This document shows, in pieces, positions 416 to 17,832 of a stretch of DNA of 17,832 nt. Both the position numbers and the translations under genes were made by a program. Under the pieces are notes generated by a model. That model had not been told where the DNA came from and made no database searches. It saw only the letters and a program-made list of their open reading frames with translations. The DNA is from an uncultured Rhodocyclaceae bacterium (GTDB taxonomy: Bacteria; Pseudomonadota; Gammaproteobacteria; Burkholderiales; Rhodocyclaceae), in the NCBI GenBank assembly GCA_903950295.1, contig CAJBAP010000269.1:1-17832 (forward strand). The letters run 5' to 3'. How positions within the stretch are numbered: the first letter of the stretch is position 1; each line of letters opens with the position of its first letter.

Positions 416-511
416 GAGAGATGACCTCCGGGAAAAGTTGTCGGTATTGTTTTTTCCCGAGTATATCCGCCGATTAGCACAGTGGGCAGCGTGTTAACCT
501 GTGCGCCCACC
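416..511. promoter_or_regulatory. Divergent intergenic region metY / yoaA
   Basis: This 96-bp gap must hold the metY promoter (leftward) and the yoaA promoter (rightward). An AT-richer patch sits at 445-467. A possible rightward pair is TTGTCG at 438-443 and TATATC at 462-467 with 18-bp spacing. The match is modest and the assignment is tentative. Confidence 0.3.
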
Positions 512-2524
512 ATGCCTGCCAAACTCGATCTTGACCGCATCTTCGCCGCCGATGGCCCGCTTGCCCGCGCCATTTCCGGCTTTCGACAGCGCGATCAGCA
601 GCTCGCCATGGCGCATGAAGTGCTGGCGGCGGTCGAGGCCAATCGCCTGCTGATCGTCGAGGCAGGCACCGGTACCGGCAAGACCTTCGCCTACCTCGCG
701 CCGGTGCTCATGGCAGGCGGCAAGGTGATCCTCTCCACCGGCACCAAGACACTCCAGGATCAGTTGTTCAACCGTGACCTGCCGACGGTGCGCGATGCTC
801 TCGGCGTGCCTGCTACGGTGGCCTTGCTCAAGGGGCGCGCGAACTACGTCTGTCCATACCACCTCGAACGTGCGTTGGCCGGCGGACGGCTCAATTCGCG
901 TGCGGAGGTGATGCACCTGAATGCCATCGCCCGCTTCGCCAAGGCCACGGCGACGGGCGACAAGGCCGAGTGCGGCGATGTGCCGGAAGACTCGGGTGCC
1001 TGGTATCAGGCCACCTCGACGCGCGAAAACTGCATCGGCCAGGAGTGTCCCCACGTCAAGGAATGCTTCGTGCTGGCCGCGCGGCGCGAGGCATTGGCGG
1101 CGGATGTGGTGGTGGTGAATCACCACCTGTTTTTTGCTGACGTCATGCTCAAGGATGACGGCATGGGCGAGTTGCTGCCGGCCTGCAACACGGTGATCTT
1201 CGACGAGGCGCACCAGTTGCCCGAAGTGGCCGGCCTGTTTTTCAGCGAGTCCATCGGCACCGGCCAACTGCTCGATCTGGTGCGTGACACCAAGCTCGAA
1301 GGTATTACCGCCGCCAAGGATTACGTCCCCTTGCAGGAATCCGCGCGGGCGCTGGAAAAGGCGACGAAAGACTTGCGGCTGGCCTTCCGCCATGAGGGCA
1401 TGCGCTTGTCTTTCGCGCAGTGGCTGACGCATGAGGCGGCGGTAGCAGCACTGGCGCACCTCCAGACTACGCTCGACGATTTTGGCAAACATCTCGAGAG
1501 TCAGGCCGGGCGTTCCGAGGGTTTGGCCAACTGCCTGTCTCGCTGTAGCGAAGTGGTAATGCAGTTGCGACATTGGCAGACCGCCAAGGCCTTCGATGCA
1601 AAAAAAGTCGGTACTGGCGGGATGAAATGCCCCGAAGCGGGTACGACAGAGGGCAGCGAAGAAGAGGTGCAGGTGCGCTGGGTCGAGGTCAGCGCGTATG
1701 GAGTTACGCTCAACCTCACGCCGCTGTCGGTGGCCAATATTTTCCGACGCCAGCTCGAAGGTCATCCGCGTGCCTGGGTGTTCACCTCGGCCACTCTCGC
1801 GGTGGGCAGCGATTTTGGCCACTATCAGAAGGCGCTCGGCCTGGCCGAAGCCACTACCGGTCGCTGGGAAAGTCCCTTCGACTACCCGACCAACGCTTTG
1901 CTGTATTGCCCGCCGGGCATGCCCGATCCCAACCACCCTGATTACTCCGAAGCCGTGGTCGAGGCTGCCTGGCCCGCGATTCGCGCTGCGGGTGCTGCCA
2001 ATGGCGGAACTTTCGTACTCTGCACGTCCTTGCGCGCCATGCGCCGCATCCATGAACTTCTGGAGGAGCGCATCGCTGCTGCCGGTCTTGAATTGCCGCT
2101 GCTGCTGCAAGGTCAACGCTCGAAGTCTGAGCTGCTCGACAGCTTCCGCCGCCTCGGCAATGCCGTGCTGGTGGCGAGCCAGAGTTTCTGGGAGGGCGTC
2201 GATGTGCGCGGCGAGGCGCTCTCGCTGGTTGTCATCGACAAACTGCCCTTCGCACCGCCCGACGACCCGGTGCTGGCGGCGCGCATCGACACGCTGAAGC
2301 GCCAGGGCCGCAATGCCTTCTTCGAGGTGCAACTGCCGCGCGCCGTGATCAGCATGAAGCAGGGCGCCGGCCGGCTGATTCGCGACGAAACCGACCGTGG
2401 TGTGCTGATGGTTTGCGACCCGCGCATGGTGGACAAACCCTACGGACGCCGCATCTGGCAAAGCCTCCCGCCGATGCGCAGGACGCGCGAAATTGCCGAT
2501 GTCGAGGTATTCTTCGGCACATGA
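512..2524 (+). CDS. yoaA: ATP-dependent DNA helicase, YoaA/DinG family (Fe-S, XPD-like)
   Basis: Superfamily 2 helicase of about 670 aa, close to E. coli YoaA, which takes part in DNA damage tolerance and contacts the clamp-loader subunit HolC. Walker A is EAGTGTGKT (about residues 50-58). Four cysteines (about 114, 174, 179, 185, within NYVCPY, ENCIGQECP and KECF) match the Fe-S cluster ligands of XPD/DinG helicases. The DEAH box is FDEAHQLPEVAG (about 231). Late motifs are SFWEGVDVRGEALSLVVIDK and QGAGRLIRDETDRG. The frame is open upstream to a GTG at 482, but the ATG at 512 gives the family-like N-terminus MPAKLDLDRIF. Neither start has a clear Shine-Dalgarno. Relative to remembered E. coli YoaA there is extra sequence near KKVGTGGMKCPEAG, where a degraded copy of the dispersed repeat lies. 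Confidence 0.93.
   Translation: MPAKLDLDRIFAADGPLARAISGFRQRDQQLAMAHEVLAAVEANRLLIVEAGTGTGKTFAYLAPVLMAGGKVILSTGTKTLQDQLFNRDLPTVRDALGVPATVALLKGRANYVCPYHLERALAGGRLNSRAEVMHLNAIARFAKATATGDKAECGDVPEDSGAWYQATSTRENCIGQECPHVKECFVLAARREALAADVVVVNHHLFFADVMLKDDGMGELLPACNTVIFDEAHQLPEVAGLFFSESIGTGQLLDLVRDTKLEGITAAKDYVPLQESARALEKATKDLRLAFRHEGMRLSFAQWLTHEAAVAALAHLQTTLDDFGKHLESQAGRSEGLANCLSRCSEVVMQLRHWQTAKAFDAKKVGTGGMKCPEAGTTEGSEEEVQVRWVEVSAYGVTLNLTPLSVANIFRRQLEGHPRAWVFTSATLAVGSDFGHYQKALGLAEATTGRWESPFDYPTNALLYCPPGMPDPNHPDYSEAVVEAAWPAIRAAGAANGGTFVLCTSLRAMRRIHELLEERIAAAGLELPLLLQGQRSKSELLDSFRRLGNAVLVASQSFWEGVDVRGEALSLVVIDKLPFAPPDDPVLAARIDTLKRQGRNAFFEVQLPRAVISMKQGAGRLIRDETDRGVLMVCDPRMVDKPYGRRIWQSLPPMRRTREIADVEVFFGT
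1601..1624 (+). repeat. Degraded copy of the dispersed GTCGGCGC repeat, inside yoaA
   Basis: Reads a run of A then GTCGGTACTGGCGGGATG, differing from the repeat consensus mainly at CG to TA and C to T. It encodes KKVGTGGM. A chance match cannot be excluded because it is in coding sequence. It falls in a stretch that looks longer than in E. coli YoaA. Confidence 0.35.
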
Positions 2525-2547
2525 AAACTCGGCGCTGTCGGTACGGC
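2524..2547 (+). repeat. Degraded copy of the dispersed repeat after the yoaA stop codon
   Basis: AAAACTCGGCGCTGTCGGTA followed by CGGC matches the 24-bp consensus at 21 of 24 positions. It begins within the yoaA TGA (2522-2524), so it forms the yoaA 3' flank and the DUF1330 gene leader. Confidence 0.5.
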
Positions 2548-2576
2548 GCCCGCTTCCTCACCAGCAGGAGAGTCAA

Positions 2577-2882
2577 ATGCCAAAGGGATACTGGATCGCG
2601 CGGGTCGATGTTGCCGATCTTGAACAGTACAAGTTCTACGTTGCAGCCAATGCCGCACCCTTCAAGCAATTCGGTGCCCACTTCCTGGTACGTGCGGGCC
2701 GTTTCGAAAATCCCGAGGGCTCAAGTCGCACGCGCAATGTCGTGATCGAGTTTCCTTCCTATCAGGCGGCCCTCGACTGCTGGCAATCGCCCGAGTACCA
2801 GGAAGCCATCAAGCTGCGCGTGTCCGCATCGACCATCGATCTGGTCATCATCGAGGGATACGACGGTCCGCAACCCTCCTGA
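2577..2882 (+). CDS. DUF1330 family protein
   Basis: A 101-residue protein starting MPKGYWIARVDVADLEQYK and ending IIEGYDGPQPS. Length and motifs are typical of DUF1330, a dimeric alpha+beta barrel fold: GYWIARVDV first strand, AHFLVRAGRFENPEG, NVVIEFPSYQAALDCWQSPEYQEA, and a final strand ending EGYDG. Members resemble small stress-responsive or monooxygenase-like proteins, but no reaction is established. The ATG at 2577 has AGGAG at 2566-2570 with good spacing, which decides against longer frames. It lies 52 bp after yoaA on the same strand and may share its transcript, and it converges with recQ. Confidence 0.9.
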   Translation: MPKGYWIARVDVADLEQYKFYVAANAAPFKQFGAHFLVRAGRFENPEGSSRTRNVVIEFPSYQAALDCWQSPEYQEAIKLRVSASTIDLVIIEGYDGPQPS

Positions 2883-2920
2883 TGCCGATCGGTTAATTCT
2901 TCGCGCTGCTGCGACGCCAG

Positions 2921-4755
<1,835 letters not shown>

Positions 4756-4759
<4 letters not shown>

Positions 4760-6492
4760 TGTACCCGGTGTACCTTCTCGTAGGCTTCCAGCAGGCGCTG
4801 GTGCATGGCGCAGCCCTTGAGTCCGGCACCGGGCGCGGCGATGGCAAAGAAACGCTGCTCACCCTCGAGCATGGCCTCTGCCTGTTCAACTACGTTGGCG
4901 CCGAAAAGCTGGCGGAGTGCGTCGCCACAGGCGTCAGTACGCTCTGCATCATCAAGGTGGATCAAGGCGTCGATGCAGCGATAGACATTGCGCCGTCCGG
5001 AATTGATCTGTTCGAAATGCAGCACCCACTCGAGCCCTTCGCGGATGCCTTCCTCATCGCCACAGGCCAGCGCCAGCAGGGTTTTCAGCTCGCCAACGCG
5101 GCAGTCTTCCCACAGTGTGCCGACATCGGCCGCCAGGCCGATGAGCGCAGCGACCGGGCGCTGGTCGTCGATGCTGCTTTCGTTCAGTGCATCGAGCAGG
5201 TCGGCGCATTCGTCGTCATCGAGTTCCTGCAGGCGCAGGATTGGTTCGCGCAGGCTGTTGCCAATGCTGTTGTTTTCCCAGGCCAGATCATCGACCGGAT
5301 AGATCTCGGACATGCCCGGCACGAGGATGCGGCAGGCATAGACGCCAAGTTGCTCGAAATCGGCAACGTAAATGTCATGCCCCATGGCGTGGATGCGCTC
5401 CATGAGCCAGGTGCAGTCGTGGCCTGTCTCTGCCTGTGGGGTGCTGAAATTCCAGTCGCAGAAGTCGAAATCCGGTGTGTCGCCAAGATAGTTCCAGTGC
5501 AGGATGCCACTCGAATCGACAAAGTGGATTTCGAGGTTCGGCGCACTGGCGACTTCCTCCAGATCGAAACCCGGCGGTGGAAAGCCACCGAGCGCGTCGA
5601 GTGCGCGGCCCTGCAACAGCTCAGTGAGTGCGCGTTCCAGGGCAACATCAAAACGTGGATGGGCGCCGAAGCTGGCGTAGCAGCCTTGATCCGCTGGATT
5701 GAGCAAGGTGACGTTCATCACCGGGAATTGGCCGCCCAGCGAGGCATCCTTGACGAGGATGCCGAAGCCGGCGGCACGCAGGGCGGCGATGCCGGCGGCA
5801 ATTTGCGGATAACGCGCGATGACGTCCTCGGGTACCTCCGGTAGGCACAGTCCCTCGGCGATGACGCGGAACTTGATGTGGCGCTCGAAGATTTCCGAGA
5901 GTGCCTGGGTGCGCGCCTCGGCGGGCGTGTTGCCGGCCGACATGCCGTTGCTCACATACAGGTTGCCGATGATATTGACCGGAAACCAGATTGCCTGGCC
6001 GTCGCGCTGGCGCGTGTAGGGCAGGGCACAGATGCCACGCTGCGTATTGCCGGAGTTCAGGTCAATGAGGGCGTCGGCAGGGATTTCGCCCTCAGGGTTG
6101 TAGAAGCTTTGCAGTTCCGGCGTCAGCAACTGCACAGGCCAACGGTCGTCGTCGGGCAGCGGAAACCACCGCTCGTGCGGGTAATGCACGAAGTCGCGGC
6201 TAGCGATGTCGTCGCCCAGGTAGTAATGCGTCCAGAAATAGTTGCACGAGAGGCGCTCAAAGAACTCGCCGAGCGCACTCGCCAGCGCTGCCAGTTTCGT
6301 TGCGCCCTTGCCGTTGGTGAACAGCAGCGGGCAGTCGCGGTCGCGCACATGCACTGACCAGATGCCATCGACAGGATTCAGCCAGGAGCGCTCTTCAAGG
6401 TGGAAACCGAGCTGCGCCAGCTTGTGCTGCATGGTGGCGATGGAAGTTTCGAGCGCGGCATCCTTGCCCGTGATGAAGGTTTCGTGGTGCAT
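4756..6492 (-). CDS. ycaO: YcaO protein (ribosomal protein S12 methylthiolation accessory type)
   Basis: A 578-aa protein, colinear with E. coli YcaO (about 586 aa), the founding member of the ATP-dependent YcaO cyclodehydratase superfamily, linked to RimO-dependent methylthiolation of ribosomal protein S12. Recognisable blocks are [10 protein letters not shown] (6-15), [39 protein letters not shown] (59-78), [35 protein letters not shown] and [20 protein letters not shown]. These carry the conserved ATP/Mg glutamates (about 75, 192, 200, 203). The last 180 residues form the helical C-terminal domain. An upstream GTG (6546) is in frame, but the ATG at 6492 gives the normal N-terminus; its Shine-Dalgarno is weak. 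It has no precursor-peptide partner nearby, so a RiPP role is unlikely. Confidence 0.95.
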
Positions 6493-7163: not shown

Positions 7164-7295
7164 TCATTGAGGTGCCTTGTGGCTGACTTTGCTTGTATTG
7201 CGGTTGGCCATCAGCCTTGCTCCAACAAGGAGAATGTCGCTACAGCGGTGTCCTTCGCGATGCGCACTGTCAGTTCGCCATAGGCCGGAGAGCAG
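7164..7295 (-). pseudogene. Truncated second copy of the 117-aa-gene/corA junction
   Basis: On the minus strand this encodes YGELTVRIAKDTAVATFSLL then EQG and stop, then immediately MANRNTSKVSHKAPQ and stop. The intact locus at 12001-12120 encodes YGELTVRIEKNTAAAMFSLL then ESG and stop, followed by CorA starting MANRNASRTNRKTP. The TGATG stop/start overlap is the same in both. The match begins abruptly at about 7290 and ends at about 7168. This is therefore a diverged duplicate fragment holding the last ~26 codons of the unknown gene and the first ~14 codons of corA, not a functional gene. Confidence 0.75.
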
Positions 7296-9492: not shown

Positions 9493-9507
9493 CTGATCGG
9501 ACAAATG

Positions 9508-9534
9508 CACGACCGGCACGACCGGCACGACCTG
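9508..9534. repeat. Short tandem repeat, 9-bp unit x3
   Basis: CACGACCGG occurs twice in tandem, followed by CACGACCTG, in the gap between the broken CDF gene and the convergent ATPase gene. Confidence 0.7.
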
Positions 9535-9612
9535 CGGCTCCAGTCTCAACGCAAACGGTTCGGCGCTCTGCTTATCCTCAGCCAGATTGACGAAGATTTG
9601 CAGCATGAATTT

Positions 9613-10851
9613 CTACAATGCAGCAAACGGAATACCGATCAGGTTTTCTTCCAGTAGACGTGGCCGCTCGTCGTTGTTGATCACGATGCCGTAACGGCAG
9701 CCGCGCTCCGCGACAAAATCGCGCAGGGCGCGCAGAGAACGGGCATCCACATGCTGGGTATGTTTGATCTCCACCGGCACCACACCGAATTCGCCCTCCA
9801 GCACCAAATCGATCTCCGCGCCGCCACCAGTGCGGTAGTGATAGGGCTGGCAATCGACGCCCGCCGCCGCAAAACCACGCAACAGGGTTTCGATCACCAT
9901 ACTTTCCCAGGATTGCCCCATGCGCGGATGCGCCATCAATTCGTCGCGCTCCGATAGGTGCAACAGGTAGTGCAGCAGGCCACTGTCGCGCAGATAGCCC
10001 TTGGGATGCTTCACCACGCGCTTGGTTGCATTTTTTTCGTAAGGCGGCAGGTGGCGCCAGATAAATGTGCCATGCGCGATCTGGAAATAATCCCGCGCCG
10101 TCGGCTGCGAGACTCCGAGCGCCCGCGCCACTTCCGAGTAATTGACGATACTGCCGGAAAGCTGCGCAAGCATCTGTACGAACAGTCGGAACTTCTGGCG
10201 ATCGAGGCCGGGAAACAGGCGCGGTAAATCGCGATCCAGATAGGTTTGCAGATAGTTTTGCATCCATAGCTTGCGAAAGCGCGCCGTCCCCTTGATCCAG
10301 GGCTCGGGATACCCTCCATGCAGCCAGTAGGCAGCCATCTGCTCCAGCGGCACGCGCGGTGCCAGCGCCATGAACGATTCGGCCGGCGCACGTTCCGCCA
10401 CCAGAGAATAAAACGGCGACGGCGGCAGTTCATGGGCTTCGGCCAGCGAGAGCGGCCCCATCTCGATCAACGCCACTCGTCCGGCCAGGCTTTCCGAGAT
10501 GGCCGACAGCAACTCCGGCGAGCTGGAACCGGTGATGACGAAGCGCCCCGGCATCTCGCGATTGCTGTCGATCGCCACCCGCAGGGCAGGAAACAAGGCG
10601 GGCAGCAACTGGCTTTCGTCGATGGCCACCCGCTCCGCATTGAGCCTCAAGAACAAGTCCGGATCACGGGCGATGACCTCGGAATCCGTCAGCTTTTCCA
10701 GATCGAATAGCCGCCAGCCGGGTAACAACTCCTGCAACAGCGTAGTCTTGCCGCACTGACGAACACCCAGCAGTGCCACGCAGGGAAAGAGCCCGAGCAG
10801 CTCGTGCAGCAGCGGAAGCGCATGTCGTTTCATGTGTGCATTATCAAACAT
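9613..10851 (-). CDS. AAA ATPase with DUF4143 domain (AAA_14 family)
   Basis: A 412-aa protein. N-terminal AAA_14 P-loop domain: LLGVRQCGKTTLLQELLPG (Walker A, about 28-46), VAIDESQLLP (Walker B, about 75-84) and FVITGSSSPELL (sensor, about 104). A middle helical part includes a winged-helix-like NYSEVARALGVSQPTARDYF. The C-terminal DUF4143 ends in a nuclease-like core: GGGAEIDLVLEGEFGVVPVE followed by IKHTQ. These orphan ATPases are common in accessory DNA; their role is unknown. Start is either ATG 10851 or the in-frame ATG 10833 (MKRHALPLL); neither has a strong ribosome site. The gene stands alone, flanked by debris on one side and a dispersed repeat on the other. Confidence 0.9.
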   Translation of the reverse strand: MFDNAHMKRHALPLLHELLGLFPCVALLGVRQCGKTTLLQELLPGWRLFDLEKLTDSEVIARDPDLFLRLNAERVAIDESQLLPALFPALRVAIDSNREMPGRFVITGSSSPELLSAISESLAGRVALIEMGPLSLAEAHELPPSPFYSLVAERAPAESFMALAPRVPLEQMAAYWLHGGYPEPWIKGTARFRKLWMQNYLQTYLDRDLPRLFPGLDRQKFRLFVQMLAQLSGSIVNYSEVARALGVSQPTARDYFQIAHGTFIWRHLPPYEKNATKRVVKHPKGYLRDSGLLHYLLHLSERDELMAHPRMGQSWESMVIETLLRGFAAAGVDCQPYHYRTGGGAEIDLVLEGEFGVVPVEIKHTQHVDARSLRALRDFVAERGCRYGIVINNDERPRLLEENLIGIPFAAL

Positions 10852-10910
10852 CGTATTTGAAATTGCAAGGTATCAAAGACCATGATTTTGCCGAACATCC
10901 CGGCATTTCG

Positions 10911-10935
10911 AAAAAGTCGGCGCTGGCGGGACGGC
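10911..10935 (+). repeat. Dispersed repeat copy downstream of corA
   Basis: AAAAA then GTCGGCGCTGGCGGGACGGC. It begins 11 bp past the corA stop codon when read on corA's strand, where it appears as a C-rich stretch ending in five T. Confidence 0.88.
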
Positions 10936-10946
10936 TAATCTTTGCT

Positions 10947-12044
10947 TCAGCCGAGCCAGCGCCGGCGCCAGAACACCGCTCCCAGCGTCGATGCCACGCC
11001 GACCATCAGGCCGATGGCGTAGAGGAAGCCGGCAGAGTCGTCGAGCAGCGGCATGACCTTGAAGTTCATGCCGAAGATGCCGGAGATCAGCGTCGCCGGC
11101 ATGAAGATGATGGCGACTACGGTGAGGGCGCGCACTTCCTGGTTGACGCGGTTGCTGATCGAGGAGAGGTAGATGTCGAGCATGCCGGCGATCAGGTCGC
11201 GGATGGCTTCGAGCGATTCGATCAGGTGCACGGTGTGATCGTAAATGTCGCGCAGGTAGAGCTGGGTTTCGGCCGTGAAGAAACGACTCTCGTTGCGCAC
11301 CAGCGTATTGATGACTTCACGCAAGGGCCAGATGGCGCGGCGTAGCGTCAGGGTCTCGCGTTTGAGTTGGTGCAAGGTCTGTAACTGGGCAGCGTCGGGC
11401 CTCGCCATCAGGTCTTCTTCGAGTTGTTCGGTACGTTCGCCAATCTGTTCCAGCACCGTGAAATAGCGGTCGACGAGAGTGTCGAGCAGTGCGTAGGCGA
11501 GGTAATCGGTGCCAAGCTGGCGGATACGCCCCTTGTCCTGGCGCAGCCACTCACGGACGGGATCGAAGCTGCCGGTTGGGCGCTCCTGAAAACTCAGCAC
11601 GAATTTCTCGCCAATGACGAAGCTGACCTGCTCCGTGGTCACCGTAAGCGTGGTGGCATCGTAGTTGAAGAAGCGCGCGACGAGGAACAGGTAGTCGCCA
11701 TAGTCGTCGATCTTCGGGCGCTGGTCGGTGTTGAGAATGTCTTCGAGTACCAGTGGGTGCAGCTTGAAACGGCGGCCGATTTCGCTCATTACCTCGGGCT
11801 CATGCAGGCCGTGGACATTGAGCCAGAGCTTTTCTCCGCTCGGGGCGCAGGTCAGGCAGGCGGTGAGGCTGTCGAAGCGCGTTTCCTTGACGCCGTCGGC
11901 GCTGTATTCGAGGAGTGTGATCGCCGCGTGTTCGGTCTTGCGTTCGCCGAGGTGCATGAGCGTGCCGGCGGGCAAACCGGCCTTGCCGGAGCGCTTGGGA
12001 TGCGGTGTCTTGCGATTGGTCCTGCTTGCGTTGCGGTTGGCCAT
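10947..12044 (-). CDS. corA: CorA-family Mg2+/divalent cation transporter
   Basis: A 365-aa inner-membrane channel-type transporter. A long cytoplasmic N-terminal domain (to about 270) holds LHPLVLEDILNTDQRPKIDD (95-114), a CorA signature. The long stalk helix is followed by two C-terminal membrane helices, the first ending with GIFGMNF (322-328) containing the GMN selectivity motif and the second ending in the basic WRRRWLG. The frame is open to 12146, but MANRNASRTNRK at 12044 is the likely start because its ATG overlaps the stop of the upstream 117-aa gene (TGATG), indicating coupled translation. The first 30 residues are basic and poorly conserved. A fragment of a second copy of this junction lies at 7164-7295. 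Confidence 0.93.
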   Translation of the reverse strand: MANRNASRTNRKTPHPKRSGKAGLPAGTLMHLGERKTEHAAITLLEYSADGVKETRFDSLTACLTCAPSGEKLWLNVHGLHEPEVMSEIGRRFKLHPLVLEDILNTDQRPKIDDYGDYLFLVARFFNYDATTLTVTTEQVSFVIGEKFVLSFQERPTGSFDPVREWLRQDKGRIRQLGTDYLAYALLDTLVDRYFTVLEQIGERTEQLEEDLMARPDAAQLQTLHQLKRETLTLRRAIWPLREVINTLVRNESRFFTAETQLYLRDIYDHTVHLIESLEAIRDLIAGMLDIYLSSISNRVNQEVRALTVVAIIFMPATLISGIFGMNFKVMPLLDDSAGFLYAIGLMVGVASTLGAVFWRRRWLG

Positions 12045-12397
12045 CAGCCTGACTCCAACAAGGAAAACATTGCTGCTGCGGTGTTCTTTTCGATGCGTAC
12101 TGTCAGCTCGCCATAGGTCTGCTGGCTTTGCGGTTCGTCGCCACAACTGCAGCCGGCAATGATTTCAGCAAAGAAGATACCCAGGTCGGCGGTAATCGCC
12201 ATGGCGTCATCCTTTACCCGCAACACGGTGGCAGTGATATGGCTGTCATCGACATGCCAGCCGTTGACCGTCACCTGATCCAGGGGCAGGCTACCGGCAG
12301 GCAGAGCTTCGATCTCGGCTTTCAAGGTGGCAGGGAAGGTCGCCTCCGGCCAGGCATGCAGGGAAAGAGGTAGCCTGATGGTAGTTGTGGCATCCAT
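12044..12397 (-). CDS. Conserved-looking 117-aa protein of unknown function, coupled to corA
   Basis: I do not recognise a family. The protein begins MDATTTIRLPLSLHAWPEAT, has no membrane segment or signal peptide, and contains strand-like stretches (DQVTVNGWHVDDSHITATVL; AMAITADLGIFFAEIIAGCS) and a small CSCGDE cluster near residue 84. It ends YGELTVRIEKNTAAAMFSLL then ESG. Evidence that it is real: its stop overlaps the corA start, and a diverged copy of this same arrangement is preserved at 7164-7295 with amino-acid-level similarity. Odd: the ATG directly follows the dispersed repeat (12400-12423), leaving no Shine-Dalgarno. Cytoplasmic location is inferred. Confidence 0.7.
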   Translation of the reverse strand: MDATTTIRLPLSLHAWPEATFPATLKAEIEALPAGSLPLDQVTVNGWHVDDSHITATVLRVKDDAMAITADLGIFFAEIIAGCSCGDEPQSQQTYGELTVRIEKNTAAAMFSLLESG

Positions 12398-12399
12398 GG

Positions 12400-12423
12400 A
12401 AAAGTCGGCGCTGGCGGGACGGC
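12400..12423 (+). repeat. Dispersed repeat copy between megL and the 117-aa gene
   Basis: AAAA then GTCGGCGCTGGCGGGACGGC. It starts 3 bp after the megL stop and ends two bases before the ATG of the 117-aa gene, so it makes up nearly the whole 29-bp gap. Confidence 0.88.
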
Positions 12424-12426
12424 GAC

Positions 12427-13623
12427 CTATGCAACTGCCAAGGCCTGGCGCAGGTCATCCACGAGATCGGCCAGATCTTCGAGTCCGATCGACAGCCGCA
12501 CCAGTCCTTCACTGATCAGGTGTTCGACTCGCTCTTCCGGCGTATAGAAGGCGTGCGTCATGCTGGCCGGATGCTGGGCGAGGCTTTCGGCATCGCCGAG
12601 GCTGACGGCGCGGGTAAACAGTTGCAGCGCATTCATGAAACGGCGTCCGGCTTCGATGCCCTCCTTGAGTTCGAAGGCGATCATGCCGCCGGGTTGCGCC
12701 ATCTGCCGTTGTGCCAGCGCGTATTGCGGGAAATCCGGCAGGCCAGGGAAGTGCACAACAGCTACTTTGGGATGGGCGGCGAGGAATTCGGCTACGCCCT
12801 GGGCATTGCTGCAGTGGCGATCCATCCGCAGGTTCAGCGTTTTCAGGCCGCGCAGCACAAGAAAGGCGTCCTGCGAGGACAGCACCGCGCCGGTCATGTC
12901 CTTGAGGCCATGAAAACGCACATGGTCGAGCGTTTCCTTGGGCCCGACGATGGCGCCGGCCAGCAGGTCGCCGTGGCCGCCGAGATATTTGGTGGCCGAA
13001 TGCAGCACGAAATCGGCGCCGAGTTCGATCGGCCTCTGCAGATAGGGCGTGCAGTAGGTGTTGTCGACAACGGTCTGTGCACCGTGGCGGCGAGCGATGG
13101 CGGCAATCGCGGCGATGTCGATCAGCCGCATGTTGGGGTTGGCGGGGGTCTCGAAGAACACGATTTTGGTCGTCGGGCCGATGGCCGCTTCGAGGTTCTT
13201 CGGCTCGGTCATGTCGATGTGCGTGACCTTGACACCGAACTTCGCCAGGCCATGATTGAGAAAGCCGAAGGTGCAGCCGTAGAGCGTCTTGTCGGCGATG
13301 ATCTCGTCGCCGGGCGCGAGCAGTGTCCACAGCAGTGAGGTGGTGGCACCCTGGCCCGAAGCGGTGACCAGCGCGGCTTCGCCGCCTTCGAGATCAGCCA
13401 GGCGTGCTTCGAGCAGAGCCGTGGTCGGATTGCCGACGCGCGAATAGACGAAGCCGGCCTGTTCGCCGGCAAAACGGGCGCTGCCGTCTTCGACGGTCTG
13501 GAAGGCGTAGGTCGAACTCAAATAGATTGGCGGATTCAACGAACCATGCCCGGCGTAGGCGTCGTAGGCATGATGGATGGCGCGGGTGGCAAAGCCGGGG
13601 CGGGATTTAACTGGCGGGGTCAT
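12427..13623 (-). CDS. megL: Methionine gamma-lyase (PLP-dependent)
   Basis: A 398-aa cytoplasmic PLP enzyme that splits methionine to methanethiol, 2-oxobutyrate and ammonia. It is colinear with Pseudomonas putida methionine gamma-lyase: [12 protein letters not shown] (10-21), [17 protein letters not shown] (51-67), [13 protein letters not shown] (113-125) with the characteristic cysteine 117 and tyrosine 115, [14 protein letters not shown], the PLP lysine K212 in [28 protein letters not shown], and [20 protein letters not shown]. The Cys in the YGCTF motif favours this over cystathionine gamma-synthase or O-succinylhomoserine sulfhydrylase. Start: the ATG at 13623 has AGGAA upstream; the frame opens further to 13680 but the extra residues do not fit. 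Divergent from sseB. Confidence 0.88.
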
Positions 13624-13708
13624 GGCGCTCTGAAATTCCTGTAAGTTGTCTGGCTTGAATCTAGCACAGGCCGCACCCATCTAGCCGGCTCACATCCGAG
13701 GATAAATC

Positions 13709-14143
13709 ATGGACAACCAGGCCTTCGAAGCCAAAAACGAGCTTGAAAAGAAGTTGCTGGACGCGATGAATGGCGTAATGTCGAGCGACGATTTCATGCG
13801 CGAACTGATGACCGAGCAGATCTACATTCCCATCAAGGATGACAAGGACAGTGGTATCCAGGGGTTTCAATTCACCACCAAGGCCACACCGCTGGTGATT
13901 CAGGATGATGAGGGTGTGAATATCCTGATTCTCTTCACCAGTCCGGATCGCTCCCACGACTTCCTGGCGCAGGTGCCTGGTTACAGTGGTGGCTTGCTGG
14001 CCGATTTTTCCTGGATTGTCGAGCGCATGGCGCCCGGCTTCGCCATTTCGGTCAATCCGGGGCTGGATGTCGGCATGGACATCGAGCCGGAAAATGTCAC
14101 TCAGATGCTGGAACTGCTGGCGGCAAGTACGGCAAAAAACTGA
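13709..14143 (+). CDS. SseB family protein
   Basis: A 144-aa acidic protein matching the SseB N-terminal domain: NELEKKLLDAMNG (10-22), LMTEQIYIPIKDD, VNILILFTSPDRSHDFL and the C-terminal GFAISVNPGLDVGMDIEPEN. SseB-type proteins are often near sulfur-enzyme genes; their molecular role is unclear. GAGG lies 8 bases before the ATG at 13709. It is divergent from megL with an 85-bp gap between start codons. Its last 47 bp overlap the end of the convergent lysR gene. Confidence 0.85.
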   Translation: MDNQAFEAKNELEKKLLDAMNGVMSSDDFMRELMTEQIYIPIKDDKDSGIQGFQFTTKATPLVIQDDEGVNILILFTSPDRSHDFLAQVPGYSGGLLADFSWIVERMAPGFAISVNPGLDVGMDIEPENVTQMLELLAASTAKN

Positions 14144-15059
14144 GGTCACAGGTTTCGGACTGGCGCCAGGGCGCGTTGCCAAAGGCTTCCACCAGAAAAT
14201 CCACCATCGCCCGCACTTTCGGCGACAGGTTGCGACTGCTGGGATAGGTGGCGAAGAGCGGTACCGCTTCAACGTGATGCCAGTCGGTCAGGATGGGCAC
14301 CAGGGCACCGCTGCGCATGGCGTCGCTGACGATAACATCCGTCAGGCGCGTGATGCCGGCACCGGCAAGCGCCAGTTGCAGTACGGTTTCGGCATTGTTG
14401 GCCGCCATATTTCCGCTGATCTGCACCACACGGATGCCATCATCGGTATCGAACGGCCAGCGGCGCAGGGCCGGCAGGCTGGTGATCCACAGGCAGTTGT
14501 GGCGTTGCAGATCATCCGGTGTGCGTGGCGTGCCGTGGCGCTCCAGGTAGCTGGGTGCGGCGCAGATTACCCGCTCCAGATTGCAGATACGCCGCGCCAC
14601 CATCGATGATTCGTCGAGGGGGCCATTGCGTATGGCCAGGTCGATACCCTCTTCGAGGGGGCCCGGCGGTTGGTCGCTGATGGTGAGGTCTATCTCGACT
14701 GCGGGATAGCGTTCCAGGAAGCGGGGGAGGGCTGAAGGTAATTCGTGTGTGCCGAATGCCGATCCGCAGTGCAGTCGGAGCAGGCCGCGCGGACTGGTTC
14801 CCGCCTGGGTGACCTCGGCTTCGGCTGCGTCCATGGCACTTAAAATGGGACGAACACGCGCATAGAAGGCTTCGCCTTCGGCGGTCAGTTGCAGGCGACG
14901 CGTGGTGCGGTGCAGAAGTCTGGCGCCGAGTCGGTCCTCGAGGCGAGTCACCAATTTCGAGAGAGCTGAGGGCGTCAAGCCAATTTCTCGCGCCGCAGCA
15001 GAAAACCCTCCGGTTTCCACGGCAAGAACAAAGGCGGTCATCTCCGCAGTGCGATCCAT
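14097..15059 (-). CDS. LysR-family transcriptional regulator
   Basis: A 320-aa regulator. The N-terminal winged helix-turn-helix is MTAFVLAVETGGFSAAAREI then GLTPSALSKLVTRLEDRL (7-44), followed by LLHRTTRRLQLTAEG. A periplasmic-binding-protein-like effector domain spans about 90-300, with a HCGSAFGTHELPSALPRFLE start and GIDLAIRNGPL in the middle. The ATG at 15059 follows a perfect palindrome (15066-15088) by 6 bases, so autoregulation is likely. The divergent neighbour at 15183 is the natural candidate target. The ligand is unknown. Its 3' end overlaps sseB on the opposite strand. Confidence 0.95.
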   Translation of the reverse strand: MDRTAEMTAFVLAVETGGFSAAAREIGLTPSALSKLVTRLEDRLGARLLHRTTRRLQLTAEGEAFYARVRPILSAMDAAEAEVTQAGTSPRGLLRLHCGSAFGTHELPSALPRFLERYPAVEIDLTISDQPPGPLEEGIDLAIRNGPLDESSMVARRICNLERVICAAPSYLERHGTPRTPDDLQRHNCLWITSLPALRRWPFDTDDGIRVVQISGNMAANNAETVLQLALAGAGITRLTDVIVSDAMRSGALVPILTDWHHVEAVPLFATYPSSRNLSPKVRAMVDFLVEAFGNAPWRQSETCDLSFLPYLPPAVPASE

Positions 15060-15065
15060 AGGCTT

Positions 15066-15088
15066 ATTGATGAAATATATTCATCAAT
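15066..15088. promoter_or_regulatory. Perfect inverted repeat, probable LysR operator
   Basis: Arms ATTGATGAA (15066-15074) and TTCATCAAT (15080-15088) are perfect 9-bp reverse complements around a 5-bp AT centre and contain a T-N11-A motif. It lies in an AT-rich island (about 15060-15180) between divergent lysR and the 99-aa gene. A second, weaker symmetric pair is GTAATT near 15103 and AATTAC near 15128. Confidence 0.75.
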
Positions 15089-15182
15089 GTTGTTCCGTTA
15101 TGGGTAATTGTATTCCAATAAATAAGTAATTACATTACGAACATCAGATGCTGCATCGCAATATTAAAAAAGGAAATCAATC

Positions 15183-15482
15183 ATGCTACCCCTCGACATC
15201 ACTGCAATCGAACAACACGCTCGCCGGCTCCGTGCCGCAGAAATGCAACGTATCAACGGACTCATGTCCGCGCAGATGCGCTTGTATGGCCAACTGATGG
15301 GAGCCACGCTGCTGTCAGCACTGATTCACCTCAGCGAGGGCTTGTTTCTATTGTTTTCGTGGAATCCGGTACAGGCGGTTTCCCGCCATACAGCCCGCCA
15401 TCTCCATCCGGCGCTGCTGACCCGCCTGAATCGTTTGGCGAGGCGGTTGTTCAGCTGGAATCCGCAGCCTCACCGTTCCTGA
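15183..15482 (+). CDS. Small protein of unknown function (99 aa), divergent from lysR
   Basis: Begins MLPLDITAIEQHARRLRAAE, an amphipathic helix pattern seen in several small proteobacterial proteins, followed by a semi-hydrophobic stretch at about 38-60 (QLMGATLLSALIHLSEGLFL). LFSWNP occurs twice, at about residues 56-61 and 88-93, the second just before the C-terminus. AGGAAA at 15171-15176 is a good ribosome site and fixes the start. It is probably under control of the neighbouring LysR protein. No family was recognised with confidence. The 15483-15643 stretch after it holds only a dispersed repeat copy. Confidence 0.65.
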   Translation: MLPLDITAIEQHARRLRAAEMQRINGLMSAQMRLYGQLMGATLLSALIHLSEGLFLLFSWNPVQAVSRHTARHLHPALLTRLNRLARRLFSWNPQPHRS

Positions 15483-15613
15483 TCTGCTATCTGCTTATTC
15501 TGCTTGTAGTTGGCAGGGTGTCAGTTCAAGCACGACGCACGTGCCATGTCGCATCAGAGCAACGGCCCGCACCACATCGCTCTCATGAGTCGTTACACGA
15601 AATTGTGATCGAT

Positions 15614-15637
15614 AAAAGTCGGCGCTGACGGGACGGC
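15614..15637 (+). repeat. Dispersed repeat copy downstream of the sulfotransferase gene
   Basis: AAAA then GTCGGCGCTGACGGGACGGC, one difference (G to A) from the other copies. Read on the sulfotransferase strand it starts about 6 bp after the stop codon. Confidence 0.85.
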
Positions 15638-15643
15638 AGTCTG

Positions 15644-16477
15644 TCATTGAGTTTGCTTGGCGAACTCTGGATAGAACCACTCGTAATACCAGCCGCAGGC
15701 CTGCATGATGAGATTCTGGATGCGGGGTGGAATCTCGTGCTGTAGGGGAGGGGCGATCTTGCTCTGTTGCCGATGCAAATACTTGTGACGGTAATGGCTG
15801 TCGCTTTCATGAGGGCGCACCGTCAGCTTCTTCGGGTCAATCTTGTGTGGTGCAACTTCCAGCCATTTATAAACTGCTGCCATCGTTTCCATCGGCTTGG
15901 CTATCAGGTCTTCGAACTTGACGAAGTACAGCCGATCCTTGACTGACTGTGGCAAGTCCTGAATTGCTTGAATGGATGACAGCGGTGCGCCAATAGCTTT
16001 GTCCTTGGCAAAGAGTTGATCGGCCCGTCCGAAGCGATCGTAATCCGCCAAGTGGTCAATAAAGTCGAGCAAGATCGTCTTCTGGTGCCGGGCCTCGATC
16101 GACCCATAAATCTGTCCCAGTTCGCGGATTGAAATTACCAGCCTAGCCTCGGGATTCAAGTGCAGCAGGAACTCGATGCAGTGCAGCCAGGCGCGGTTTT
16201 TATCCACCACGACCGGCTTGTCCGTTCCGGCATGCCATCCGTGCAGGAAACCCTGCATCGCCCCCTTGAGGTGGGCATAAGTCGTGTCGAACTGCACATC
16301 GAGTTGCGACAACATAAACTGGTCATCGCTGATAAAGCGCCGCGTGGACAACAAGGCATTACACAGCGGCGAACTATGTCCCTCACAATGGATTTCCGGA
16401 TGCTCGGCCAGCAGTTGGGTGAGCAAGGTAGAACCAGCGCGGGGCAAGCCCGCGACGCCTACAAAACGTGGTGTCAT
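15644..16477 (-). CDS. Sulfotransferase family protein
   Basis: A 277-aa PAPS-dependent-type sulfotransferase. The 5'-phosphosulfate loop is GLPRAGSTLL (10-19), after MTPRFVGVA. The 3'-phosphate-binding region is RLVISIREL followed by GQIYGSIEARHQ. Later, LYFVKFEDLIAKPMETM and HESDSHYRHKYLHRQ match the family of TPR-linked bacterial sulfotransferases. The substrate is unknown. The frame extends to a TTG at 16510; the ATG at 16477 is preferred because the fold begins at once, though its ribosome site is weak. The gene and flanks look less GC-rich than the rest of the window. A degraded TPR/glycosyltransferase-type gene lies just upstream on the same strand, suggesting a former joint locus. 16478-16567 holds nothing recognisable. 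Confidence 0.88.
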   Translation of the reverse strand: MTPRFVGVAGLPRAGSTLLTQLLAEHPEIHCEGHSSPLCNALLSTRRFISDDQFMLSQLDVQFDTTYAHLKGAMQGFLHGWHAGTDKPVVVDKNRAWLHCIEFLLHLNPEARLVISIRELGQIYGSIEARHQKTILLDFIDHLADYDRFGRADQLFAKDKAIGAPLSSIQAIQDLPQSVKDRLYFVKFEDLIAKPMETMAAVYKWLEVAPHKIDPKKLTVRPHESDSHYRHKYLHRQQSKIAPPLQHEIPPRIQNLIMQACGWYYEWFYPEFAKQTQ

Positions 16478-16567
16478 TTCAATGTTCTTTCGAAAGTTGA
16501 ATTTTCTCAAAAGCCGATCATCAACGTCTTGTCATAAACATGATCAGTTCGAAGAAGAAAGCGGCCA

Positions 16568-16950
16568 TCAGCAACCACTTTCCCCAAGATGCCGCACTGG
16601 CTGGAGATTCTGCCAGATGTAGCGTGGGCAAAGTGCTACAGCAATCTCGTCTGAGACAGACTGCCAATCACCCAATTCCTTTTGCCGCCATAAGGTCACC
16701 GAGGGATACCAAGACGTATCGACCCTGTTGCGCATCCAGCGGTAATCTCGCGGCCCAGATCGAGCAGCGCGCTTTGCTGAACCCAGGATTCCGCACTCGT
16801 CCCCCGATCCTTTTGCACACTGATCCAGGCGATGTGCGCCAAAGACAGCCAGGTCTCGACCCGTTCCGTCGCCAATGAGCGGTTGCGATCATTCGGATGG
16901 ATGGGGTTGCCGGCCCAGTTGATCGCAATTATCGGTCGGCCTGTCAAACG
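16568..16950 (-). pseudogene. C-terminal remnant of a TPR/glycosyltransferase-9-like protein, frameshifted
   Basis: Two adjoining frames carry matching pieces. The first, from about 16950 to 16745, reads RPIIAINWAGNPIHPNDRNR, then HIAWISVQKD and ALLDLGREI, typical of the glycosyltransferase-9-like domain attached to TPR repeats. The second frame, from about 16752 to a TGA at 16568, reads RDYRWMRNRVDTSWYPSVTL then WRQKELGDWQSVSDEIAVAL, the usual C-terminus of the same proteins. The segment normally between them is missing, so a deletion plus frameshift occurred near 16744-16752. No TPR part remains upstream, where hicAB begins. Confidence 0.7.
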
Positions 16951-16996
16951 ATGCGCTGGTTGAGGCGCCGCAGGCGATGGTGTGAAATGCAAGCAT

Positions 16997-17012
16997 AAAA
17001 CGCTTGCGTTTT
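16997..17012. promoter_or_regulatory. Palindrome upstream of hicA, candidate HicB operator
   Basis: AAAACGCTTGCGTTTT has perfect 7-bp arms around TT and ends 27 bp before the hicA ATG. HicB-type antitoxins bind palindromes at their own promoter. The role is inferred from position. Confidence 0.55.
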
Positions 17013-17039
17013 GCCGGACCATTTGTTAGCGTATCAACG

Positions 17040-17294
17040 ATGAAAAACAAACACGAGAAAACCTTGCGGGCGATCTTTACGCGACCGACATTGGCAACGG
17101 TGGTATTTCTGGATATCGAAGCGCTCGTGCTTGCTTTGGGGGGTGAAGTGGTGGAGGGCGCGGGGTCGCGAGTGGCGCTGCATCTCGGCAATACAGTCAA
17201 ACATGCCCATCGTCCGCATCCTGGCAAGGACGCGAAAAAGTACCAGATCGAAGAAATCAGGCTCTGGCTTGAGGCACAAGGAGTGAAACCATGA
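17040..17294 (+). CDS. hicA: HicA-family toxin (type II toxin-antitoxin)
   Basis: An 84-aa basic protein: MKNKHEKTLRAIFTRPT at the start, then FLDIEALVLALGGEVVEGAG followed by SRVALHL, and HRPHPGKDAKKYQIEEIRLW. This matches the longer HicA variant, a dsRBD-like mRNA interferase. The usual catalytic histidine of the GSHH motif is not at that place; H53 in ALHL may serve. The frame opens at 17004 but the ATG at 17040 gives the family start. Its TGA overlaps the hicB ATG by four bases (ATGA), the usual coupling. Confidence 0.9.
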   Translation: MKNKHEKTLRAIFTRPTLATVVFLDIEALVLALGGEVVEGAGSRVALHLGNTVKHAHRPHPGKDAKKYQIEEIRLWLEAQGVKP

Positions 17295-17629
17295 ACAATC
17301 TGACGTACAAAGGTTATGCGGCGCGCGTGGAGTTCGATGCCCGCGATGCAATTTTTTGGGGCAAGGTGCTGGGATTGCCCGAGAGCGTGAGCATTACTTT
17401 CGAGGGCGAAACCGTTGCTCAACTCACGGACGATTTTCACCATGCCGTCGACTTTTATATTGAGGATTGCGCAAGGCTGGGCACGGGGCCGCTCAAGCCG
17501 GCGAGCGGAAAACTGATGCTGCGCGTGCCGCCTGAAGTACATGGCTCGGCCTTGATCGCCGCTAAGGCGGCTGGAAAAAGCCTCAACCAATGGGCGACCG
17601 AAGTGCTGCGAGATGCGGCACATGCGTAA
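17291..17629 (+). CDS. hicB: HicB-family antitoxin
   Basis: A 112-aa antitoxin with the N-terminal RNase-H-like HicB fold (MNNLTYKGYAARVEFDARDA, then FEGETVAQLTDDFHHAVDFY) and a C-terminal ribbon-helix-helix DNA-binding tail (GKLMLRVPPEVHGSALIAAK then AAGKSLNQWATEVLRDAAHA). It neutralises HicA and should repress the hicAB promoter. Both domains are complete, so the module is probably functional. Confidence 0.93.
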   Translation: MNNLTYKGYAARVEFDARDAIFWGKVLGLPESVSITFEGETVAQLTDDFHHAVDFYIEDCARLGTGPLKPASGKLMLRVPPEVHGSALIAAKAAGKSLNQWATEVLRDAAHA

Positions 17630-17634
17630 GAACC

Positions 17635-17775
17635 TCAAATAATCGGAGTTAGCGCGTTGAGATAGTCGCTGTGGGTGACCGCAGCGACCGCACGAAAACC
17701 AGCCACCGCACCGGTCAGATCGCCGGTGCGGTAGGCCGTCAAGGTTTCATCGTGGTTGATCAAGTGCTCACTCAT
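17635..17775 (-). CDS. Possible small protein (46 aa), unknown
   Basis: Reads MSEHLINHDETLTAYRTGDL, then TGAVAGFRAVAAVTHSDYLN and ALTPII before TGA. The ATG (17773-17775) overlaps the end of the upstream partial gene by eight bases, as expected for an operon. It may be a complete small protein or a gene shortened by the events that brought hicAB beside it; the abrupt end favours neither clearly. Convergent with hicB, 5 bp apart. No family recognised. Confidence 0.4.
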   Translation of the reverse strand: MSEHLINHDETLTAYRTGDLTGAVAGFRAVAAVTHSDYLNALTPII

Positions 17776-17832
17776 TGCGCTCCGAAATCACGACCGTGGT
17801 GCGGGTGCCGCCAATAATGACGATTACCTGCA
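17768..17832 (-). CDS. C-terminal end of an unknown gene (runs off the window)
   Basis: The last 20 codons read QVIVIIGGTRTTVVISERNE then TGA at 17768-17770. Too short to identify. Kept because the frame is open to the edge and overlaps the start of the following small reading frame on the same strand. Confidence 0.4.
   Translation of the reverse strand, partial: QVIVIIGGTRTTVVISERNE

Follow-up and report, generated by a model that had tools for sequence, protein, structure and literature searches.

What is a 24-25-bp sequence that recurs several times in a short contig of an uncultured Rhodocyclaceae bacterium, and that stands in three places just past a stop codon? The question was raised by a preliminary description of a 17,832-nt stretch of contig CAJBAP010000269.1 (the whole of this stretch is called the window below), which proposed a shared RNA 3'-end signal, a protein-binding site or the scar of a small mobile element. 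When the window was compared with genomes of its relatives, the repeat proved to be a chromosome-wide motif. We consider it probable that in a Rhodocyclaceae-type clade the repeat acts genome-wide as a recognition motif, similar to the DNA uptake sequence (DUS) of Neisseriaceae and the uptake signal sequence (USS) of Pasteurellaceae, and that it is maintained by biased DNA uptake. Hundreds of copies, dialects within one clade, absence of insertion, placement governed by tolerance, strand balance and fairly even spacing together make recognition or drive of the uptake type the likeliest explanation. The protein-binding site of the preliminary description would survive, recast as a DNA-uptake-type recognition motif.

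Abundance, dialects and phylogeny

The four copies were recovered at the places where they had been described. A 20-mer of the motif matched exactly at 3184-3203 (minus strand), 10916-10935 and 12404-12423, with one mismatch at 15618-15637 and with three mismatches at 2528-2547. These five matches (at most three mismatches) lie far above the shuffled expectation, a mean of 0.01 over 200 shuffles. With a weak sixth copy of 79% identity at 1603-1626, the window holds four near-exact and two degraded copies.

Genome-wide counts were made in relatives of the window organism, with the reversed pattern as control; genomes, contigs and loci carry working labels beginning with G, C and L. The named carriers are metagenome-assembled genomes and the family name of the relatives is taken from record titles. 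In the GTDB genome collection, at least 120 stretches contained an exact 22-mer. Among the matches listed, most titles name Rhodocyclaceae, Sulfuritalea, Sulfurisoma or uncultured betaproteobacteria, and biofilm and groundwater are among the sample types mentioned in the titles. When 18 genomes with an exact match were counted at up to three mismatches, 13 contained 347-765 copies on roughly balanced strands (control 0) and the remaining five contained 2-11 copies (one control match, in G004); since these 18 were selected for holding an exact match, they are not a fair sample. In a sample of the family, at least 100 copies were found in 12 of 121 genomes, and in 17 of 121 when a degenerate, dialect-tolerant pattern was used, the others having at most 17 copies (control 0-3 per genome). 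In a sample of the order, four of 399 genomes were rich and the others were near the control, the highest with 15 copies against a control of 2 (G007). Carrier relatives span 200-765 copies per genome, with about 0 in the reversed control, so the copy number above chance that the preliminary description had anticipated is borne out in the relatives. In three genomes, each sampled over 420 kb, the motif words also head the list of over-represented 12-mers.

A few near-perfect copies, partly clustered or of mixed dialect, were observed in motif-poor genomes (G071 C104, G034 C1, and G070 C50 and C6) and look like DNA imported from carriers.

The motif is non-palindromic and sharply bounded, with the lineage dialects AAAGTCGGCGCTGGCGnnACGGC and AAAGTCAGTCnCnGCGnnACGGC. 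Logos from 420 kb each of G084 (83 sites) and G095 (104 sites) showed a length of 24-25 bp between flat flanks. The consensus of these two genomes is AAAGTCGGCGCTGGCG-nn-ACGGC plus one lineage-specific base, positions 16-17 being the freest (a variable 2-bp spacer), and two conserved end blocks lie about 17 bp apart. In a 420-kb sample of G026, the top over-represented 12-mer was AAAGTCAGTCCC, the start of the motif AAAAGTCAGTCnCnGCGGnACGGCG (44 sites), which has the same length and ends as the main motif. More variants occur among the listed sites of G060 and G128, and the variants in these three genomes show that the motif has dialects.

When a ComEC tree was drawn for 40 genomes (the 42 ComEC-bearing genomes less G087 and G118), all 26 carriers and the non-carriers G048 and G098 formed one group (support 0.989). 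G026 and G088, with the AGTC dialect, are monophyletic, as are G081 and G128, which are visible only with the degenerate pattern. The dialects follow phylogeny, and the two non-carriers are nested in the carrier group; this nesting suggests that the motif was lost in G048 (0 loose matches) and G098 (10 loose matches). No related over-represented 12-mer was found in 100 kb of G098. The few copies clustered at 1.46-1.50 Mb of this genome are perhaps imported DNA.

Placement and origin of the copies

The placement statistics rest on samples of three genomes (G084, G095 and G026), in which genes were called by a simple custom script. Sites within genes numbered 49 of 80, 69 of 97 and 49 of 73, respectively (167 of 250 in total), against 84-90% expected (p 1.6e-7 to 7.1e-7), and they use the reading frames unequally, with preferred frames. 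Residues flanking the sites showed lower conservation than the remainder of the protein in G084 (p 0.0008) and G095 (p 0.0007) and not significantly so in G026 (p 0.11), in a test that covers the 89 of 167 intragenic sites with a spanning homologue. Low-GC 5-kb bins were poorer in sites (0.29, 0.50 and 0.25 per bin against 0.95, 1.15 and 0.87 in the three genomes), a comparison made on 6-8 low-GC bins per genome and with a motif that is itself GC-rich.

The strands were compared across the replichores of G095, whose GC skew switches sign near 1.27 Mb and whose first 20 kb contain a gene that we take to be dnaA-like. In the 820 kb sampled, the motif stood 41/41 and 36/35 on the two strands on either side of the skew switch. 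Without such polarity the motif is not like KOPS (FtsK-orienting polar sequences) or Chi, and an oriented replication or recombination motif of that type was rejected; since sites lie on both sides of the switch and away from it, the motif is not matS-like either. The same balance tells against the main rival explanation, in which a cytoplasmic protein that has nothing to do with DNA uptake (a factor of the nucleoid, of segregation or of recombination) binds the motif across the chromosome. So do the lack of a palindrome and the fact that copies in coding regions displaced other residues, which would be costly absent a drive. A cytoplasmic protein would nevertheless suit a sharply bounded motif with two spaced end blocks, a spacing that in G084 and G095 is more regular than a Poisson distribution predicts (coefficient of variation (CV) 0.82 and 0.69; Kolmogorov-Smirnov p 0.04 and 0.01) and the weak evidence for ComEA in carriers given below. 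We regard this explanation as rather unlikely, though it deserves to be kept in mind.

Outside genes, 16 of 29, 18 of 26 and 14 of 21 sites in G084, G095 and G026 (48 of 76 in total) lie at most 30 bp past a stop codon, against 11, 12 and 17% at random. The bias to gene 3' ends noticed in the window therefore holds for the intergenic copies of the relatives. The T-run, which had been described as distal to the stop codon, shows no such regularity, with 27 T-distal and 21 A-distal copies. Proximity to stop codons speaks for a 3'-end element such as a transcription terminator, a roadblock or an RNA processing signal, and so do some hairpins. That the repeat forms no strong hairpin holds for the motif alone (-2.6 kcal/mol) but not for the corA copy in context, where pairing with the end of corA gives a strong hairpin (-31.8 kcal/mol, z -2.78) and UUUUU comes next. 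The megL copy (-18.3 kcal/mol, z 0.57) and the sulfotransferase copy (-11.0 kcal/mol, z -1.02) form no strong hairpin; the dinG-side copy in context reached -27.8 kcal/mol (z -1.92).

Pairs of copies at most 120 bp apart were searched among 670 unique strict sites. In G026 (420 kb), two inverted pairs form long hairpins ending in T-runs, which also favours a 3'-end element, and one looser inverted pair with A-runs inside and a few direct pairs were seen. Outside G026, inverted pairs were found in L087 (a long hairpin) and L223 (83 bp apart), a pair with A-runs inside was found in L007, and direct pairs were more numerous, mostly belonging to the composite units of G095. The definition of an intrinsic terminator, a GC-rich hairpin plus a U-run, applies to the corA copy and a few pairs and not to the whole family, and long complementary words are lacking near most of the stop-side copies. 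Both orientations near stop codons and the location of most sites within genes indicate that an RNA 3'-end signal is not the motif's main role, contrary to one of the original proposals, and we judge a 3'-end element improbable as the general explanation.

In the composite units of G095, the motif is followed by 9-10 nt, an inverted variant CGTCCCGCCGGGCGCCGACTC, 8 nt and the motif again, with a 54-bp period and sometimes in tandem (L164:9840, L267:14080-14155 and L259:13339-13414, for example, and also in L275 and at L008:7490). By our reading, the 820 kb of G095 contain 16 middle parts at 14 places. No composite units were found in the samples of G084 and G026, only four-mismatch matches to the middle part without flanking motifs.

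How the copies arose was studied in homologous sites. In pairwise alignments the motif is often retained while the flanks diverge, or it decays through substitutions, in a comparison biased towards conservation because the sites were chosen for their match to the consensus. Clean absence of the motif was seen in one of 403 alignments (a 25-bp gap, L083 versus L223). When the 167 intragenic sites were compared with homologues of at least 45% identity in other fetched sequence, 85 comparisons were obtained (a site may count once per class), 26 with the motif and 59 without. Among the 59, 35 had no gap, 23 had other gaps and one had a clean gap of 7-9 residues, so the sites were mostly made from existing sequence and not by insertion.

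These alignments reject an insertion element and disfavour the scar of one; a small mobile element, or one like REP (repetitive extragenic palindromic) or MITE (miniature inverted-repeat transposable element) sequences, is very improbable, since hundreds of near-identical copies, the composite units and the one clean absence are outweighed by the gapless homologues, the unconserved flanks, the two thirds of sites within genes and the lack of composites in two genomes (no search aimed at a RAYT transposase was made). In a viral contig collection, exact matches were present in only 43 stretches, several of them close to where a stored stretch ends; this small number is a further point against a mobile element, and a phage origin was rejected on it.

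The copies and genes of the window

The features of the window are listed in Table 1, where the distances of three copies from stop codons agree with the 3-11 bp first reported. The copy at 2524 is oriented the other way round from the three other stop-side copies, and the position in G095 (L154:4324) that aligns with the degraded copy at 1603 has the motif. The recQ copy is shared by 14 of 19 full-length or nearly full-length orthologues (L165-L183), a count without L184, which is partial, and without L219 and L226, whose positions coincide with those of L169 and L168. For the megL-like gene, three of three homologues with 82-88% identity, and five of 13 rows when distant ones are included, have a motif close to the stop codon. 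No motif (up to five mismatches) was found in the 400 bp past the stop codon in 11 of 11 corA homologues.

Table 1 Motif copies and annotated genes in the 17,832-nt window
Feature	Position	Strand	Basis
DinG-like helicase gene	482..2524	+	Helicase_C_2 (Pfam)
Degraded copy in the dinG-like helicase gene, in frame as KKVGTGGMK	1603..1626	+	5 mismatches vs degenerate consensus
Copy whose first base is the last base of the dinG-like stop codon, A-run gene-side	2524..2547	+	2 mismatches vs degenerate consensus
recQ	2921..4759	-	DEAD, Helicase_C, RecQ_Zn_bind, RQC, HRDC (Pfam)
Exact copy in recQ, read in frame as KKSALAGR, in the linker that joins the RQC and HRDC domains	3184..3208	-	sequence match and Pfam
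Exact copy, 11 bp past the corA stop; 3' arm of the terminator-like hairpin with the corA end	10911..10935	+	sequence match, folding
corA	10947..12146	-	PF01544
Exact copy, 3 bp past the megL-like stop	12400..12423	+	sequence match
Cys/Met-metabolism pyridoxal-phosphate enzyme gene, megL-like	12427..13680	-	PF01053; DNA similarity to annotated methionine gamma-lyase genes
Copy with 1 mismatch, 6 bp past the sulfotransferase stop	15614..15637	+	sequence match
Sulfotransferase family gene	15644..16510	-	PF13469

A plasmid search with positions 9500-17832 of the window gave four records, each similar over the megL-type gene only. A direct repeat of 117 nt was also observed in the window (7168-7284 and 12001-12117, 79% identity); it belongs to a family separate from the 24-bp motif.

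DNA uptake as a probable explanation, and known systems

From the abundance, dialects and placement we infer a recognising protein, a bias in uptake and a drive. A DNA-binding component of the competence or type IV pilus machinery would prefer fragments bearing the motif, and the fragments taken up would recombine into the chromosome. The bias would then continually create and preserve copies where the sequence tolerates them, as it does just past stop codons and in protein regions of weaker conservation. Where a second arm is available, some of the copies that lie downstream of genes may serve secondarily as terminators. Several traits expected of DUS and USS were found in the carriers, namely abundance with a dominant k-mer (420-kb samples of three genomes), dialects that follow phylogeny, origin by substitution, and under-representation in coding and in constrained sequence (the conservation effect not being significant in G026) on both strands (replichores compared in G095 only).

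Several results weigh against this explanation. The excess of one orientation within genes that is reported for DUS and USS was significant in one of the three genomes (sense/antisense 33/16 in G084, p 0.02; 41/28 in G095; 24/25 in G026). The strong hugging of stop codons is not fully explained by the uptake model alone, the spacing in G026 is not more even than chance (CV 0.93), inverted pairs are rare and direct pairs commoner outside G026, and the nested G048 and G098 lack the motif. In size and number the motif also departs from the Neisseriaceae DUS, with 24-25 bp against 10-13 and about 200-765 copies against the 943-5918 given in PMC3630211.

The competence genes belong here as well. 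When 43 genomes (27 carriers and 16 non-carriers, the latter motif-poor relatives) were compared, ComEA exceeded the model cut-off in two of 27 carriers and in seven of 16 non-carriers. A second helix-hairpin-helix model, applied to 21 carriers and six non-carriers, gave no over-cut-off match shorter than 250 aa in any carrier; it mostly matched frames of about 800 aa, presumably Tex-like, and its one small over-cut-off match was in the non-carrier G034. ComEC (26 of 27 carriers, 16 of 16 non-carriers) and GspH/FimT-type pilins (24 of 27 and 16 of 16) do not separate the groups. The ComEC of nearly all carriers is in itself in line with an uptake system. As carrier discriminators, ComEC, GspH-type pilins and ComEA were all set aside, none separating the groups in the expected direction.

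Literature searches found no transformation or uptake data for these organisms. In the literature covered, which excludes subscription journals and preprints, no mention was found of an uptake sequence for Rhodocyclaceae or Rhodocyclales, or of natural transformation for Sulfuritalea. Four motif strings matched four papers that, by their titles and the beginnings of their abstracts, are apparently on plants.

According to a statement of 2025, Neisseriaceae and Pasteurellaceae are the only families in which self-recognition in DNA uptake is known (PMC12616744), and both occur mainly in mucosal environments (PMC7811141). We see about even chances that the motif represents a third, independent system of self-DNA recognition, with a 24-25-bp uptake signal and dialects in environmental Rhodocyclaceae-type betaproteobacteria, probably without a conventional ComEA. 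If true, this independent case in environmental bacteria, with a motif that is longer and has several dialects, would make it possible to test motif build-up by molecular drive alone, receptor-motif co-evolution and the role of host habitat. Should the motif have another role than uptake, it would be a binding motif spread over the chromosome in similar numbers, for which the literature searched gave no description. In any case it offers a practical means of recognising DNA that has recently entered or left the carrier clade.

Among other chromosomal repeats, Chi, KOPS and matS are short motifs that occur across bacterial chromosomes and are read by DNA-binding proteins. The present motif differs from them in having neither replichore orientation bias nor terminus restriction in G095, and it is about three times longer than Chi or KOPS. 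REP elements, bacterial interspersed mosaic elements (BIME) and intrinsic terminators are abundant, often lie past stop codons and sometimes form inverted pairs, whereas our motif is mostly intragenic, forms hardly any hairpin alone and did not arise by insertion.

Most traits of the motif are described for DUS and USS in PMC3630211, PMC7811141, PMC2346458 and PMC12616744. In PMC7811141, uptake sequences are distinguished from inserted elements and said to be under-represented where the sequence is coding or strongly constrained. For both types, inverted pairs that are used as terminators have been described (PMC3630211 and PMC12616744). With the Neisseriaceae DUS (5'-ATGCCGTCTGAA-3', receptor ComP), the motif shares over-representation, a non-palindromic form, intragenic and intergenic location on both strands, dialects that follow phylogeny, stray copies of foreign dialects and perhaps some inverted pairs at terminators. 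It differs in having no CTG core at the corresponding place and few inverted pairs in the main dialect, and in that ComEA was mostly not found. The complementary strand of the motif starts with GCCGTC, the same six letters as in the Neisseria 10-mer DUS; as this may be coincidence, it was not counted as evidence.

From the Pasteurellaceae USS (e.g. AAGTGCGGT, candidate receptor ComN/PpdA) the motif differs in sequence and in bacterial class, and its logo has no AT-rich tracts downstream of the core. It resembles the USS in its long extended form (up to about 32 nt in the USS), its origin without insertion, its depletion in coding and constrained sequence, its fairly even distribution and its two types of dialect.

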